A model generated the notes under the pieces. It had not been told where the DNA came from. It worked only from the letters and a program-made list of their open reading frames with translations, and made no database searches. From contig JAKCAB010000778.1 of assembly GCA_021839785.1 (NCBI GenBank), positions 1 to 7,464 of the forward strand: a stretch of DNA of 7,464 bases, given 5' to 3'. The translations under genes and the position numbers were made by a program. Shown in pieces: positions 3 through 7,464 of the stretch (positions are counted from its first letter, which is position 1; every line of letters starts with the position of its first letter). The stretch comes from a bacterium. Lineage in GTDB: Bacteria > Verrucomicrobiota > Verrucomicrobiae > Limisphaerales > J093.

Positions 3-2462
3 CCGCCGGAACTGAGCTTGTTTTTCATGGGCGACGCGCGCGACCCGGCCACGTTGCGCTTCGAATTCCACGGCAAGGCGGCTGGCGCGCTCACGTCCTG
101 GGGCCGGCTGAACCGCCTGCAACTCCTGGCGAAAGTCAGCCCCGATCCGTCCGGCAACACCCCCGAACGGACGGAGTTGGAGATTCGGCTCGGCTCCGCG
201 CAAACGCCATGGGGCCGGCTCCGCGACGGCCGATTCCACGCGGTGGCGCACCACCGCTTCACCAACGCCCCGCCCGCGCGCATCGACTGGGACCTCGAGG
301 CCGCCGGGTGGGTTTCGCCGGCGGTGAGTGTGCGGCGACCGCGCGCCGAAGGGCAGAGCCTTTGCCGTGACGACAAGTCCAGCGAATATCGCACCACCTT
401 CCACGTTTCCGCCGAGCGCCTGACCGCGCCTTCGGCGACGTGGGACGGCGCTCGCTTCGACGGCCAGGCGGATCAAGTCATGACCAACCCGGTGCCACGC
501 GAAATCGCCGGTCGCCTGGCGGTGACGGGCTTGTCGGTGAGAAACGTGCGCGTGGCGGACACGGCCGTGGACTTGCGGTTGACACCGACCGCTCCGTCCC
601 AGGAAGCCACCGATCCAGAACTCGGTTTCTGGTCGCAATTGGCACCGGTCAAAGCGGAGTTTGCGCTGAGCGTGACGAACGTGCAGTCGCCGCAAGTAGC
701 GTTGGACGCGGCCCGGCTCGGCGGGAGTTGGCGCTTTCCGGACCTGACATTGACGAACGTCCACGCCGCGCTTTGCGGCGGCACACTGGCCGTGGACCGG
801 CTAGCGTTGAACGCGGCCACGCGCGAAGCCGCGACCGATCTGGCCCTGGATTTCGACCTCCAGCGCCTCGACCGCGCGCTGCCGCCGGCAGCCTTGGAAT
901 GGCTCGGTCAGTTCACCTATCAGGAGCCGCCGCACGCCACCGCCACCGCGCGCGTGCGCCTCCCACCCTGGCGCGGGGCCGCCGCGGATGCCGGCCGGCA
1001 ACTGCTCGCATCGCTCGATTTGCGGGCGCGGATCGATGGCCGCGACGCGGTGTATCGGGAACTCCCGGCCGACCAGGCCGGCGTGACGCTGACCATTTCC
1101 AATCAAGTCCTGCGGCTTCGAGACCTCGCGCTGGTTCGGCCCGAAGGGCGGGCGGATTTGCGCTACGACTTGAATCTCCGCTCGCGCGCCTTCCGCTGGA
1201 GTTTCGCCTGCAACGTGGATCCGCAGGCGGCCGCGCCGGTGATCGACCCCGCGTTGCCCGAGATCGTGAGCCACTTCGCCTTCACCGGGCCGCCGGTGGT
1301 AACCGGTGAGGTCTGGGGCAACTGGGGACCGCCCAAGCAAGTCGAGTTTGCCCTGCAACTCGCGGCCACAAACTTTGCCTTTCGCGGCGAGCATTTCGAC
1401 ACCCTCACGGCCGGGCTGCAAATGACCAACGAGGTCCTGTCGGCCACGGAGGTCGCGTTGCGCGCCGGCGACGAGTCCATTCACGCGCCGTGGGCCACTT
1501 ATTCGCCGGAGGAAGACCTGGTGACTTTGACCAACGCCCGCGCGCACATGGACCCGCAACGGATCGCCCGCTGCCTCGGGACGAACGTCGTGGAACTGCT
1601 CGCACCGTACCGCTTCGCGGCGCCGCCGGATGTGTTGGTGCAAGGCCAAGTGCCGACCGGCAGTGACTTGACGCGGGCGGACATGAGCTTCGAAGTGGCT
1701 GGCGGGCCCTTCAATTTCTGGCGGTTCAACACGCCGCAGATCACCAGCCGCGTGCGCTGGGCCGGCAACCGCGTTTCGGTCACCAATCTCACTTGCGACT
1801 TTTATGCCGGCCGGCTGGTCGGCGGCATTGACCTCGACCTGGAGCCGGGCGGCGACGCGCGGTTCCAGTTTCAGACCCAGGCCACGGACGTGGACCTGCA
1901 TCGCTTGCTGGCGGATGTCGTCGGCGCCACCAACCGCATCGAAGGCACGGCGACCGCGTCGCTCATCGTCACCAACGCCACCACCGCGGACTGGAAAAGC
2001 TGGTTCGGCCACGGGCGCGCCGAGATGCGCAACGGCCTGCTTTGGGACCTGCCGATCTTTGGCACGCTGTCGCACGTCATGAACGTCTTCGTTCCCGGCC
2101 TCGGCAACAGCCGGGCGCGGGCGGCCGCGGCCACGTACACCATCACCCGGAGCGTGATTCGCACCGACGACCTCGCTATCGAGGCCGGCCCCGCGCGGTT
2201 GCTGTATCGTGGAACGGTGGACTTCGACGGGAACGTGTCGGCGCGGGTCGTGGCCGAGGCGCTGCACAGCACGCCGATCATCGGCCCGCTGATCAGCCTG
2301 GCGTTGTCCCCGGCGGCGAAGGCGCTCGAGTTCAAGGTGAGCGGCACCCTGGACAAACCGGAGTTGAAGCCGGTGTATGTGCCGCCGTTCCTGCTGCCGT
2401 TGTTGAACCCGATCGGCACGCTCAAAGGCATCGTGGCGCCTCCGCCAACCAAGCCGCGTTGA
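3..2462 (+). CDS. AsmA/YhdP-like envelope protein, C-terminal part (5' end outside window)
   Basis: The frame is open from the first complete codon of the window to a TGA at 2460-2462, so the true start is upstream; the TTG at 18 is only the first possible start inside the window. About 820 residues are visible. They are rich in short alternating beta strands with repeated aromatic or hydrophobic residues, Thr-Asn turns and Gly-rich connections, as in the long beta-groove proteins of the AsmA/TamB/YhdP group. Numbered from the TTG, the last 250 residues resemble the AsmA-like C-terminal domain: NGLLWDLPIFG at 672-682, then a strand-rich segment, and TPIIGPLISLAL at 752-763 before a Pro-rich end. 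Proteins of this group are anchored in the inner membrane, span the periplasm and are implicated in phospholipid transport to the outer membrane. The N-terminal membrane anchor would lie outside the window. The AsmA-superfamily call is fairly secure, but the exact subfamily and cargo cannot be read here. Confidence 0.7.
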   Translation, partial: PPELSLFFMGDARDPATLRFEFHGKAAGALTSWGRLNRLQLLAKVSPDPSGNTPERTELEIRLGSAQTPWGRLRDGRFHAVAHHRFTNAPPARIDWDLEAAGWVSPAVSVRRPRAEGQSLCRDDKSSEYRTTFHVSAERLTAPSATWDGARFDGQADQVMTNPVPREIAGRLAVTGLSVRNVRVADTAVDLRLTPTAPSQEATDPELGFWSQLAPVKAEFALSVTNVQSPQVALDAARLGGSWRFPDLTLTNVHAALCGGTLAVDRLALNAATREAATDLALDFDLQRLDRALPPAALEWLGQFTYQEPPHATATARVRLPPWRGAAADAGRQLLASLDLRARIDGRDAVYRELPADQAGVTLTISNQVLRLRDLALVRPEGRADLRYDLNLRSRAFRWSFACNVDPQAAAPVIDPALPEIVSHFAFTGPPVVTGEVWGNWGPPKQVEFALQLAATNFAFRGEHFDTLTAGLQMTNEVLSATEVALRAGDESIHAPWATYSPEEDLVTLTNARAHMDPQRIARCLGTNVVELLAPYRFAAPPDVLVQGQVPTGSDLTRADMSFEVAGGPFNFWRFNTPQITSRVRWAGNRVSVTNLTCDFYAGRLVGGIDLDLEPGGDARFQFQTQATDVDLHRLLADVVGATNRIEGTATASLIVTNATTADWKSWFGHGRAEMRNGLLWDLPIFGTLSHVMNVFVPGLGNSRARAAAATYTITRSVIRTDDLAIEAGPARLLYRGTVDFDGNVSARVVAEALHSTPIIGPLISLALSPAAKALEFKVSGTLDKPELKPVYVPPFLLPLLNPIGTLKGIVAPPPTKPR

Positions 2463-4194: not shown

Positions 4195-4470
4195 TCATAA
4201 TCGGGGATCGTACCCGCCGACGGTGCGGTCCCCGATTTCTTTGCCGTCGGGGCGCGCGGCTCTTCGTTGTTGATGCAGGCGAGCAATTCGTCGCCGGTGA
4301 TGCCGTCGGACTTGGCGACCCAGTCGCGCCAGCGGTAGGGCCGGTTCAAAGGCGGGCTTGAACTTCTCCTCAGTAAGCCTGACCTCGCCCACGCGCATGA
4401 TGTCGCGCACGGATTTCAGGAGCGCGCCGAGAGATTGGGCGGTGGTAGGTTGAGAAACAGGTTCTGGCAT
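4195..4470 (-). pseudogene. hsdM: hsdM remnant: N-terminus of a type I restriction-modification DNA methyltransferase
   Basis: Reading from the ATG at 4470-4468, the first 26 codons give PTTAQSLGALLKSVRDIMR, the typical start of HsdM, the N6-adenine methyltransferase subunit of type I R-M systems. The conserved stretch that normally follows (KDKGLNGDLDRLP and a TWxMFLKFLDD helix, roughly 30-35 residues) is missing. The text resumes at about 4386 with RLTEEKFKPAFEP. An extra G at 4341 then shifts the frame. The second frame reads PYRWRDWVAKSDGITGDELL and ACINNEE to 4260, which is unmistakable HsdM sequence. A one-base loss near 4260 restores the first frame for RPDGK, after which homology ends at about 4241. 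The remaining codons to the TGA at 4195 run through the neighbouring terminator. The SAM-binding and NPPF/NPPY catalytic motifs, hsdS and hsdR are all absent, so it cannot make a methyltransferase. It starts 51 bases after the dprA-like stop on the same strand. Confidence 0.8.
4199..4242 (+). terminator. intrinsic terminator of the Gfo/Idh/MocA gene
   Basis: AATCGGGGA (4199-4207) pairs perfectly with TCCCCGATT (4229-4237), and an inner CCGC/GCGG pairing (4214-4217 with 4225-4228) is possible across a bulge. The tail TTTCTTT follows on the + strand, while the - strand has no matching U-tract. It begins 20 bases past the dehydrogenase stop. The recognisable hsdM homology on the opposite strand starts at its downstream edge. 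Confidence 0.6.
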
Positions 4471-4501: not shown

Positions 4502-4531
4502 TTTGTTGTGATGCAAGCCAGTCACAACAAA
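4502..4531. repeat. 10-bp perfect inverted repeat overlapping the dprA-like stop codon
   Basis: TTTGTTGTGA (4502-4511) and TCACAACAAA (4522-4531) are exact reverse complements around a 10-base spacer. On the - strand the first arm contains the last codons and the TGA of the dprA-like gene, and the second arm lies just after it. The stem is AT-rich and lacks a clean U-tract, so it would be a weak terminator. It could instead slow 3' decay or be a protein or recombination site. An 8-bp direct repeat CAAACGAT (4491-4498 and 4528-4535) brackets part of it. Confidence 0.5.
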
Positions 4532-5814
4532 CGATCAGCAACTCCCGTGGTGCGATAACGAACGGGTTTGGCGGTTTTTTCCAACTGTCCCTCTTCCACC
4601 AGCTTTGTCAGCCATGCCTTAGCTTGACTTTTCGAAACGTCAAGCAACCCGGCTACTTCTGCCTCGGTCTTTGCCACAATCAATTCGCGTTTCAAAATTT
4701 TGCCAACCGCGTCGAAAAGAGTCTGTGCCGGCAACCACTTTGCTTCATACAGGTTTTGTTCCGGTTGCGGGATTGTTGGGAGAACCTCGTCGCTCTTGAT
4801 CTGATATGGTGTTTGCTGCTCGCGAAGCGCAAAAGAAAGAGTCTCTTGTTTCGGTTCCGCTGCCACCGACTCAAGCGCGCTCACAAGCACTCTGGCCAAT
4901 TCATCGCCGTTTTGTGGGTTTGGCCAAGGCACGCCGCCGTGATGGATCAGCGCCGAATTTCCACGGCCAACATGATTTCCATTTCGGACAAACACCGGAA
5001 CAAAATGAAACCGCTCAAGTTGCTCAATGGCTCCCGCCCAAGTGCCTCCCGTTTCGAAATCGGAGGTCACAACCAAACCCGCATCGGCAATGGCGTAAAT
5101 CACCTTGTTGCGTTGCATCGCATTGCCGACGTTGAATCCCGCCGCCGGGTCGTAAGGCGACACCAAAACCAGCCGGTGATCCATCAACGGCTCGCGGTTT
5201 TCAAAGGCAACGGCTGCGCGTTCAAGGCTGTCGCTCATCACGGCCACCGCTTCGCCGCCGGATTGAAGCGCGCCCTTGATGGCGGCGCGGTCAATGCCTT
5301 TGGCGCCGCCGGAAACCAGCGTCCGGTGAGCTTCGGCGGCAAGCTTTCCGATTCCCTCCGTGTAGCTGATGAGTTCTTCGTCCACATGCCGGGAACCGAC
5401 CACGGCCAAACCGCCTTTTTCCAGCAATGCCAAATCTCCGCAACCGTACAGGAGCGGAGGTGCGTCCTCTTTCAGCCGTGTTTTCAATCGCTTGGGATAA
5501 ATCGAGTCCGCTCGGCTGATAACCCAGATGTTTCGTGCGTTCCATCGTTCGATGGCTTGACTCAACAAGAATCCCCGCCCCAAAAGCATGTCGAGTCGTT
5601 CTTTTCCAAACTGCTGCGCGCAAAGATTGATCACCTCGTCAGCATCGTTTCCAATCAAGTCAGCAGGTTGTTTCTGCTTTTCACGCAAGAGACGAGCAAG
5701 GCGGTTGTATTCGCCCAAACTCAACAGTTTGGCGGAGAGGTCTCCACGTCCCGCAACCAGCGGCGCGATTAGCAACAGGATTGCCTGCGTATTCTGGGTC
5801 AATGGTGTCATCAT
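4522..5814 (-). CDS. psyrA: DprA-like (Smf/LOG-fold) protein with C-terminal winged helix; PsyrA/RqlI-like antitoxin candidate
   Basis: This 430-residue protein has a DprA-type Rossmann domain in the middle: YPKRLKTRL at 107-115, LLYGCGD at 121-127, LAVVGSR at 136-142, SGGAKGID at 168-175, then QRNKVIYAIAD at 234-244 and LVVTSDFETGGTWAGA at 247-262. These match the order in DprA (VGSR, SGxAxGID, RNxxI, the GG/SGT loop). Residues 1-100 form a helical N-terminal region, and about 362-425 look like a winged helix (EVAGLLDVSKSQAKAWLTKL). Housekeeping DprA loads RecA on incoming single-stranded DNA. This copy is more divergent, lies directly behind a RecQ-PRTase gene and overlaps it by ATGA, which is the arrangement of PsyrTA/RqlHI. 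There the DprA-like partner restrains the helicase-PRTase. By analogy it would bind nucleotide or DNA and the partner in the cytoplasm. The ATG at 5814 has no clear Shine-Dalgarno sequence, so translational coupling is likely. The symbol is by architecture, not proven orthology. Confidence 0.8.
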   Translation of the reverse strand: MMTPLTQNTQAILLLIAPLVAGRGDLSAKLLSLGEYNRLARLLREKQKQPADLIGNDADEVINLCAQQFGKERLDMLLGRGFLLSQAIERWNARNIWVISRADSIYPKRLKTRLKEDAPPLLYGCGDLALLEKGGLAVVGSRHVDEELISYTEGIGKLAAEAHRTLVSGGAKGIDRAAIKGALQSGGEAVAVMSDSLERAAVAFENREPLMDHRLVLVSPYDPAAGFNVGNAMQRNKVIYAIADAGLVVTSDFETGGTWAGAIEQLERFHFVPVFVRNGNHVGRGNSALIHHGGVPWPNPQNGDELARVLVSALESVAAEPKQETLSFALREQQTPYQIKSDEVLPTIPQPEQNLYEAKWLPAQTLFDAVGKILKRELIVAKTEAEVAGLLDVSKSQAKAWLTKLVEEGQLEKTAKPVRYRTTGVADRLL

Positions 5815-7464
5815 GCGTCAGCGTGTGCAGTCGAGGCCAGAGCCAGAGGATGCACCGGCCCGCTGCCATTCGTGAGCAGCAGATAAGCCGCAACCGTCAT
5901 CGTCCATTTCGAATCTACCATATCATCCACCAACAAGACCGCGCCAGCCGGAACAGTGCCGTGGATCCTTAACGAGCCATCCACATTCCGAGCCTGCTGA
6001 CTGCTGTTTTCCATTTGCTTTTGTGCCGGGCGGTCATCGGTTTTTTCCAGCACGGGATGAAATGGCAGATTCAGCGCCGTTGCGAGACGGCGGGCAAAGT
6101 CCGGCACCAGTTCCGGATGTCGCCGAGAGGGGATGCAGGCAACCCAAGCTGGCGGCGGTTGCGGCGCCCAAGTTCGCACCATCGCGGCACAGGCTTCGAC
6201 CAATTGGTCGGCGAATCGTCCGTCCAGAGATTTTCCTTCACGCACCAACGAACCCCAGCCTGCGTCACCCCACATGCAAAGCACCCGACCGGGTTGAGCC
6301 TGATGTTCGGATGCGATTCGCCCAGCGACCTTCATGTGTGGCAATCCGCCGGTCGGCCATAGGCGGCGCGGCTCCAGCGGCAGACTCGTGCGACGCAGAA
6401 AGGCCACGGCCTCCCGGGCCAGTCCGTCATCAAACGCGGTGGGCAAAGGAGCGATGTTCGGTGCGCGATAAGTTCCCGCATCGCCGTCAAGTGCCCGGAT
6501 GAGAAATTCCATGTGGCCTGAAGTCAACGCCACGTATTCCTGCATTTGTTGCTGCTCTACCCGGCGCAATTCAGTCAGCCGCTCTGCCCGTTGCCAGAAC
6601 GCTTCCGAAAGATTGGCGGTCGTCAAAATCCATTTGCTGCCTTGCTTCACCACCGGAGCTGGCGATTCCAGCGACATGAGTTGCAGCGCCTTGTCAATGC
6701 GTCCTCTGCGAATGTTCACCCGGCTTAAAAGCTCATTGATCGAAAATCCGGCAGCAACACCGCGAAGCGCGTTCAGCGCGGATTCAACCTCCTGCCGTGA
6801 TGGAAAGGCGCTCTCGATGAAATAGTCGTTGATGTCCGATTCTTCTTGTCCACTTAATAACACGCCGTGCGCTTCTGGAATTTGCCGCCCCGCACGACCC
6901 ACCTGCTGATAATAGGCGACCACCGAACCGGGCGTTTGATAATGAATCACAAAGGCGAGGTCGGGTTTATCAAATCCCATTCCCAGCGCGGTAGTTGCTA
7001 CCAAGGCCTTCACGCGGTTTTCCAACAAAGCGTTCTCAAGCTCTACTCGCCGCTCGCCGGTTTCGCCACTGTAGGATTCCGCCTGAATGCCTCGCGATTG
7101 CAACCAACCCGCAACTTGAACTGCATCACGCACGGTGAGTGTGTAGATGATACCACTCCCCCGGATATTCGGCAGATGCGTTGCCAGCCAAGCCATGCGA
7201 GCCGCTTGGCTCGGCATACGAATTGTTTGCAGCCGCAAAGAGGGCCGGCCAAGTTCGCCACGCGATACAGTCAGGCGTGGACCGAGGATGGTCTGCAAAT
7301 CCACCAGCACCCGGTTGTTGGCCGTAGCTGTCGTGGCGAGCACGCGCAAGTTACGTGGCAATGTCCGCATCATTCGCTCAATGAACCGATAGTGCGGACG
7401 GAAATCATGGCCCCAATCCGAAATGCAATGCGCTTCATCCACCACCAGCAACGAGATTCGTCCC
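5811..7464 (-). CDS. psyrT: RecQ-like helicase fused to a phosphoribosyltransferase, PsyrT/RqlH-like (5' end outside window)
   Basis: The frame runs off the right edge, so the N-terminal helicase half with the Walker A motif is not seen; 551 residues remain. Numbered from the TTG at 7451, motif II is DEAHCISDWGHDFRP (5-19), typical of RecQ, followed by TTATA (40-44, motif III), VATTALGMGFDKPDL (151-165, motif V) and QQVGRAGR (182-189, motif VI). A helical and winged-helix-like linker follows. About residues 415-546 form a phosphoribosyltransferase domain: an ACIPSRRHPELV strand-loop, RPAQKQM, then VLLVDDMVDSKWTMT (505-519) at the PRPP-binding position. The linker has no Cys where RecQ proteins carry the zinc-binding cluster. 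In PsyrTA and RqlHI a RecQ-PRTase of this layout is the toxic component, countered by the adjacent DprA-like protein, and the module protects against phages. Its substrate is unknown. It ends in TGA at 5811, overlapping the start of the DprA-like gene by four bases. A solo RecQ-PRTase repair enzyme is possible but fits the neighbour less well. Confidence 0.85.
   Translation of the reverse strand, partial: GRISLLVVDEAHCISDWGHDFRPHYRFIERMMRTLPRNLRVLATTATANNRVLVDLQTILGPRLTVSRGELGRPSLRLQTIRMPSQAARMAWLATHLPNIRGSGIIYTLTVRDAVQVAGWLQSRGIQAESYSGETGERRVELENALLENRVKALVATTALGMGFDKPDLAFVIHYQTPGSVVAYYQQVGRAGRQIPEAHGVLLSGQEESDINDYFIESAFPSRQEVESALNALRGVAAGFSINELLSRVNIRRGRIDKALQLMSLESPAPVVKQGSKWILTTANLSEAFWQRAERLTELRRVEQQQMQEYVALTSGHMEFLIRALDGDAGTYRAPNIAPLPTAFDDGLAREAVAFLRRTSLPLEPRRLWPTGGLPHMKVAGRIASEHQAQPGRVLCMWGDAGWGSLVREGKSLDGRFADQLVEACAAMVRTWAPQPPPAWVACIPSRRHPELVPDFARRLATALNLPFHPVLEKTDDRPAQKQMENSSQQARNVDGSLRIHGTVPAGAVLLVDDMVDSKWTMTVAAYLLLTNGSGPVHPLALASTAHADA

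Follow-up and report, generated by a model that had tools for sequence, protein, structure and literature searches.

In Escherichia coli, the helicase-phosphoribosyltransferase RqlH leads, without its partner RqlI, to SOS induction, filamentation and loss of viability; this toxicity needs the phosphoribosyltransferase (PRTase), and RqlH and RqlI interact (PMC4670107; published work is cited throughout for the passages drawn on). Pairs of this type, also named PsyrTA, had been recorded in 240 genera by 2015, including a cyanobacterium and Gram-positives (PMC4670107), while ShosTA likewise joins a PRTase toxin to a DprA-like antitoxin (PMC9122126), the toxin disturbing the purine pool and ShosA binding DNA (PMC12593503). 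Helicase, PRTase and DprA functions also meet in ComFA-ComFC-DprA of natural competence (PMC5512222). Here we describe contig JAKCAB010000778.1, a stretch of 7,464 nucleotides (the window, meaning this whole stretch), whose minus strand holds a gene pair that is almost certainly a member of PsyrTA (RqlHI). The copy looks intact and unremarkable for this known type of toxin-antitoxin pair, which is suspected of acting against phages, and its comparison with relatives indicates that the family parts into two old branches, one without the RecQ zinc site. The pair is laid out as follows:

5811..7463, minus strand: PsyrT (RqlH-like) gene, residues 142-691 of 691 (open reading frame, PADLOC, identity with protein P0001)
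7428..7439, minus strand: Walker B / motif II DEAH (sequence inspection)
7320..7331, minus strand: TATA (sequence inspection)
6885..6908, minus strand: QQVGRAGR (sequence inspection)
5814..6299, minus strand: type I PRTase domain, C-terminal, boundary approximate (PF00156 in relatives, profile search, AlphaFold2 (AF2) model)
5901..5930, minus strand: phosphoribosyl pyrophosphate (PRPP)-binding loop VDDMVDSKWT (sequence inspection)
4522..5814, minus strand: PsyrA (RqlI-like) gene, complete, 430 amino acids (open reading frame, PADLOC, AF2)
5811..5814, minus strand: psyrT stop and psyrA start overlapping in ATGA, TCAT on the plus strand (reading-frame list, sequence inspection)
5029..5544, minus strand: DprA-like Rossmann domain (DNA_processg_A PF02481, 3.3e-33, residues 91-262)
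4549..4731, minus strand: C-terminal helices and two strands after a disordered linker (AF2 secondary structure; PF01978 in relatives)

The PsyrT frame (7463-5811) comprises 550 amino acids, its 5' end open at the window edge, and is followed by the PsyrA frame (5814-4522) with a 4-base overlap. A first-pass annotation had read this arrangement as a RecQ-type helicase with a C-terminal PRTase next to a DprA-like gene, hence as a PsyrTA/RqlHI pair, and had proposed a PADLOC search, which called both proteins: PsyrT scored 687.5 bits (4.5e-207; profile positions 142-688 of 689) and PsyrA 431.8 bits (6.8e-130; positions 1-395 of 398), with next best matches of 183.2 bits for DpdF and 87.3 bits for ShosA, respectively. 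Profile, architecture, gene order and phylogeny together support this predicted family membership. In the helicase part, the DEAH residues D150, E151, A152 and H153 are invariant across the 10-row alignment A2, Pfam matches DEAD (1e-7) and Helicase_C (4.3e-13) in the PsyrT fragment, and the PsyrT model shows a RecQ fold that aligns with RECQL5 to residue 432. We take TATA (7331-7320) and QQVGRAGR (6908-6885) to be helicase motifs III and VI; QVGRAGR recurs in 74 of the 76 PsyrT rows, the others reading EIGRAGR (L005) and QAGRAGR (L036). Neither a lost Walker A nor an upstream break, both raised by the first-pass annotation, was seen: the database protein P0001 (691 amino acids, on contigs up to 24.8 kb) is identical across all 550 PsyrT residues and carries Walker A, TGWGKS, at a position that falls outside the window, so nothing indicates an upstream break in the gene.

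The window PsyrT alone reaches 18.8 bits on the PRTase family PF00156, under the Pfam cut-off of 26.3, and 25 of 27 aligned relatives match that family (E up to 1), the best at 7.5e-11. A profile search retrieves PRPP synthetases and PRTases, and the AF2 model of this domain has alpha/beta order. Helicases take up the structural matches listed for the whole PsyrT model, with no PRTase among them, and the PRTase assignment rests on sequence profiles. By motif, the aspartate in VDDMVDSKWT appears to correspond to D663 of E. coli RqlH, where D663A abolishes toxicity save for a modest effect on viable counts (PMC4670107). In another locus, L018 (5926-9092), the PRPP loop of PsyrT is altered (LLLDGMVASRWT) and PsyrA is shortened to 363 amino acids, as if toxin and antitoxin were decaying together.

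The AF2 model of PsyrA (predicted local distance difference test, pLDDT, 88.7) has DprA and ShosA as its nearest folds. Its C-terminus is likely a winged helix, judging from the modelled helices and strands and from PF01978, which is precomputed in the relatives P0153, P0173, P0230 and P0233. On Sinorhizobium pSymB (L001, 5001-8430), a full-length PsyrT is followed by a PsyrA in two overlapping frames, which may be real or a sequencing error.

Other identities were tried and rejected. With the first 141 residues of the protein outside the comparison, PsyrT scores 167.6 bits on the housekeeping RecQ model TIGR01389 (cut-off 640.2) and 112.1 bits on NF041063 for DpdF of the Dpd system (cut-off 550), where the PADLOC score is weaker too. 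PsyrA reaches 77.3 bits on the housekeeping DprA model TIGR00732 (cut-off 191.15), and the trees described below agree in both housekeeping cases. ShosTA was set aside on its weaker profile scores and on the RecQ helicase of the window toxin; to our knowledge, ShosT has no helicase.

For comparison we assembled 90 loci, namely 80 genome loci found via PsyrA, three from viral contigs and seven from plasmids, with reading frames here and in the neighbour work chosen by length without a gene finder. Both genes are present in 83 of the 90, overlapping or at most 38 bases apart in 79 of these 83 and sharing the 4-base overlap in 28 of 83; a 1035-amino-acid frame in L159, considered as a PsyrT-PsyrA fusion, proved by tblastn to be a normal pair. 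A Pseudomonas syringae PsyrTA was validated by Sberro 2013; the P. syringae copy compared here (L025, strain GAW0119) has the gene order and overlap of the window and the same helicase-PRTase with a DprA-like partner, at 64% identity in PsyrT and 49% in PsyrA, although its host belongs to another phylum. E. coli RqlHI, compared through the plasmid copy L003, shares architecture and motifs at 47% (PsyrT) and 35% (PsyrA) identity, but it keeps four cysteines that the window PsyrT lacks and falls on the other branch in both trees, whereas the P. syringae copy falls on the same one.

The PsyrT tree was built from 75 of the 86 loci with a PsyrT match (11 partial ones were dropped), the window and eight RecQ rows as outgroup, and the PsyrA tree from 82 loci, the window and nine DprA rows, among which L094 is probably in a wrong frame; both were quick trees without bootstrap. 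The RecQ outgroup separated at 100 in the Shimodaira-Hasegawa-like approximate likelihood ratio test (SH-aLRT), and eight of the nine DprA rows did so at 100; the exception was L094 (end branch 10), which stood on the PsyrA side. Both window genes thus lie outside the housekeeping RecQ and DprA groups, a point on which the first-pass annotation had proposed to judge them. The window grouped with Verrucomicrobiota rows and L011 in the PsyrT tree (five rows at 98, six rows at 99) and again in the PsyrA tree (seven rows at 98).

RecQ enzymes usually have four zinc-binding cysteines after the helicase core. The corresponding part of the window is:

6441..6539, minus strand: segment of four cysteines in zinc-type PsyrT, here with no cysteine (residues 450-482 of P0001)

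The window PsyrT lacks all four, and C..C..C occurs in none of the 120 window PsyrT relatives listed, all at least 80% identical. Of the 76 PsyrT rows, 36 have CCCC in the zinc columns and 40 have no cysteine there, with no intermediates seen; among the zinc-less rows, L028, L033 and L047 each carry one cysteine at a different place in this segment. A branch with SH-aLRT 99 set the zinc-less PsyrT apart from all other rows, the RecQ outgroup included, and the same branch was recovered after the zinc columns were removed. The antitoxins follow broadly: zinc-type partners cluster together at 97 (33 rows plus four with incomplete PsyrT), and 36 of the 38 zinc-less partners lie in one 42-row group at 94 (six rows with incomplete PsyrT), L042 and L062 falling outside it. 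The zinc-less branch includes the window and the P. syringae copy; since a P. syringae copy also lacks it, the zinc site does not define PsyrTA overall. The zinc branch includes the E. coli plasmid copy, most cyanobacterial rows and L005-L007, two actinobacterial loci and one archaeal with PsyrT and no PsyrA nearby; in the haloarchaeal plasmid locus L005 (PsyrT at 4971-7052), no PsyrA lies inside the 12-kb stretch. The zinc-less segment is not degenerate: it retains a recurrent H-M-x-F-L-I-x-A-L-D-G-like sequence, and the model keeps its alignment with RECQL5. No earlier report of the split was found in the literature searched, most subscription papers being outside reach, and the word 'zinc' occurs nowhere in PMC4670107. 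We regard the all-or-none split as a new, if modest, comparative result. A further reading, in which PsyrTA would be two systems, with a single ancestral loss of the zinc site, a co-diverged PsyrA, a zinc-less helicase that now serves as sensor or regulator of the PRTase instead of unwinding DNA in the RecQ manner, and branches that sense different things, is offered tentatively, and we think it possible but doubtful.

The first-pass annotation had further suggested that a copy outside Proteobacteria would extend the known range. This did not hold, because a wide spread had already been reported (PMC4670107), and the loci compared here carry titles from more than 15 phyla. Those found via PsyrA are titled Nitrospirae, Rokubacteria, Acidobacteria, Chlorobiaceae, Omnitrophota, Bipolaricaulota, Spirochaetaceae and others, with further titles of Planctomycetaceae, Cyanobacteria, Gemmatimonadota, Chloroflexi, Fibrobacterota and Thermotogae; these labels come from record titles, and those of single metagenome-assembled genomes (MAGs) may be wrong. 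Passages of the literature naming both PsyrTA and Verrucomicrobia, supplements being outside this scope, report no PsyrTA from Verrucomicrobiota. Some individual records call for comment. Mycobacterium colombiense has a zinc-less-branch pair (L030, 108-3556); RqlH was reported alone in 99.6% of the Gram-positives surveyed (PMC4670107). A contig binned as Bifidobacterium (L020), perhaps wrongly, carries a pair that clusters with Pseudomonadota rows. L054 and L055, from MAGs labelled Kiritimatiellae and Verrucomicrobia, have identical PsyrT and PsyrA and possibly represent one organism under two labels.

Within the phylum, PsyrA was found at 1e-40 in 17 of 288 Verrucomicrobiota genomes, a sample without completeness data. 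With three candidates scored per genome, 18 PsyrT copies reached at least 860 bits, in 17 genomes; the other 97 PsyrT-matching genomes reach at most 403 bits and are taken as holding RecQ relatives. Both PsyrA and a full PsyrT occur in 15 genomes. Partial PsyrA (189 and 185 bits) without full PsyrT was found in G134 and G254, and the PsyrA of G282 has internal stops. G163 and G198 carry a full PsyrT with PsyrA matches at DprA level only (118 and 110 bits); in G163 the match lies 42 kb from PsyrT on one contig, in G198 on a separate contig, so that orphan PsyrT may exist. Such orphans are under-sampled here, since PsyrA led to 80 of the 90 loci and viral contigs supplied three more. Of the 18 Verrucomicrobiota regions, seven are zinc-less, ten are of the zinc type and one is incomplete, and both branches therefore circulate in the phylum. 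Among phages, 25 records matched PsyrT, none with one place covering 80% of it, and of the three loci returned from IMG/VR only L088 holds the pair.

Beyond the pair, the window contains three further features:

4263..4470, minus strand: broken 5' hsdM-like remnant (type I methyltransferase), two frames with a gap (plasmid matches)
2752..4179, plus strand: Gfo/Idh/MocA oxidoreductase, beyond the hsdM remnant (Pfam)
3..2462, plus strand: 819-amino-acid frame with no Pfam or NCBIfam match (open reading frame, profile scans)

The hsdM remnant begins 51 bases after psyrA. Its pieces align, in the same order, with residues 21-38 and 81-112 of a plasmid-borne A. chroococcum HsdM, and the second matches plasmid N-6 DNA methylases, best at 3e-8; against seven restriction or BREX proteins (from L003, L004 and L013) and all reading frames of the compared loci, they gave nothing convincing. 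The oxidoreductase frame is nearest the BT_2158 glycoside 3-dehydrogenase model, at 275 bits against a cut-off of 750. The 819-amino-acid frame, which may be AsmA-like, is 79% identical in G003 and otherwise has one 34% match among 387 phylum genomes at 1e-60. Listed members of this sample recur in the sample built around G002, the source of L009, which is titled an uncultured Verrucomicrobiales bacterium. The host is likely a member of Verrucomicrobiota, the name borne by a PsyrA homologue at 82% (P0136). In G003 the PsyrTA pair and the homologue of the 819-amino-acid gene lie on different contigs, which fits mobility of the pair but is no proof of it; for an empty-site comparison, the copy of the upstream gene in the nearest relative (L151) lies near a contig end.

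Restriction genes recur beside relatives of the pair. It stands between hsdS and hsdR in L003 and within BREX in L004. We scanned 97 of the 177 frames near the 18 Verrucomicrobiota pairs (the closest 100 minus three of great length) and, as controls, 99 of 231 frames (100 random ones less one very long) from 18 stretches in 13 of the 18 genomes, several of these stretches lying on the pair's own contig or on contigs chosen for RecQ or DprA. Type I methyltransferases were found in four neighbour members, specificity subunits in three and HsdR domains in two, whereas the 25 commonest of 31 control families include no type I restriction family; the control matches listed are RtcR-, GajB-, RTasHel-, mad3- and C3a187-like, one frame per family. 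PADLOC families numbered 218 beside pairs versus 31 in controls, the 25 commonest being listed on each side; this is not a gene count because PADLOC models are redundant. The recurrence of restriction genes supports a defence neighbourhood. In the viral contig L088 (2881-16753), PsyrTA has a CBASS cyclase-phospholipase pair with a WYL regulator on one side and type I restriction genes (M, S and R) on the other, all in a row. In L166 (3-1049) the frame directly upstream of psyrT matches the PADLOC candidate PDC-S06 (4e-147, profile positions 402-726 of 732).

Taken as a whole, the statement that the window holds a zinc-less-branch PsyrTA toxin-antitoxin operon with an abortive-defence mechanism seems to us somewhat probable, and the full mechanism, drawn by analogy, has in our judgement about an even chance. 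The sequence provides a RecQ-fold ATPase/helicase-PRTase with a PRPP loop, a DprA-fold partner and an adjoining decayed type I gene. By analogy with E. coli RqlHI and ShosTA, PsyrA would bind PsyrT and hold the PRTase off; the helicase part would lead the complex to single-stranded or tailed DNA, for example that of a replicating phage or plasmid, where PsyrA would be drawn off or changed. The freed PRTase might then act with PRPP on a base or nucleotide; growth would halt through the nucleotide imbalance or DNA damage that follows, so that replication of the invader fails. The term 'defence module' used by the first-pass annotation stands as far as the neighbourhood goes, which fits it; for the window copy itself, phage defence is what we infer from analogy, and several observations weigh against it. 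Deletion of PsyrTA in E. coli NILS69, challenged with 10 phages, revealed no detectable protection, and a clone under its own regulation in K-12, challenged with 15 phages, gave a growth defect only (PMC12409345). In a survey of soil, marine and gut MAGs, PsyrTA was under-represented in defence islands, and within islands it co-localised with other systems (PMC10924106). Helicase-dead E. coli RqlH causes more SOS induction and leaves fewer viable cells (PMC4670107), and because it does more harm, the helicase may restrain the toxin rather than trigger it. Finally, a zinc-less helicase may not unwind DNA as RecQ does.

The absence of phage protection in PMC12409345 would also suit a DNA-processing or repair pair, in which nucleotides of cellular DNA are altered by PsyrT and resolved by PsyrA, with toxicity arising only from an imbalance of the two. 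This model was put forward in PMC4670107, where nearly all surveyed Gram-positive genomes have RqlH alone. We nevertheless consider it unlikely: a core repair role is disfavoured because a less patchy spread than PsyrA in just 17 of 288 Verrucomicrobiota genomes would be expected, the pair is found on plasmids and across phyla with restriction genes recurrent beside it, and all six PsyrA-bearing phylum genomes checked (G001-G006) own a separate DprA above the curated cut-off.

The decayed hsdM adjoining the window pair could instead mark a selfish addiction module that rides restriction or mobile loci without giving protection, the window copy having survived a decayed element. Damaged copies elsewhere, namely the altered PRTase loop with shortened PsyrA in L018, the two-frame PsyrA of L001 and the internal stops in G282, agree with this, but the window PsyrA and the window part of PsyrT look intact, and among the 120 PsyrT relatives listed, 94 are 690-693 amino acids long and 108 retain the PRPP-loop pattern. 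Because relatives keep length and loop, continued selection is suggested, and we hold the addiction reading to be quite improbable.

ComFA, ComFC and DprA are encoded by separate genes, with a different helicase and a role in DNA uptake, and the PsyrT likeness is, in our reading, closer to ComFC. A competence-like apparatus for incoming single-stranded DNA, built from helicase, ComFC-like PRTase and DprA, draws on those domain parallels (PMC5512222, PMC4670107) and on a weak GntX match of the PsyrT C-terminus (20.2 bits, cut-off 304), but it is very unlikely, given that the four window proteins scanned include no recognised competence gene save the DprA-like PsyrA, that relatives carry a separate DprA, and that PsyrA itself scores 77 bits on TIGR00732 against 191.

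For the window, the result is mainly corrective: the annotation is good and the known range is unchanged. If the two-systems reading were true, results from E. coli RqlHI would not be transferable to the branch of P. syringae and Verrucomicrobiota. For the family, the papers drawn on contain little direct evidence that the named system PsyrTA defends against phages. The zinc split, broadly mirrored in the antitoxin tree, suggests a straightforward explanation for possible differences in behaviour between copies, and experiments on PsyrTA should cover both branches.

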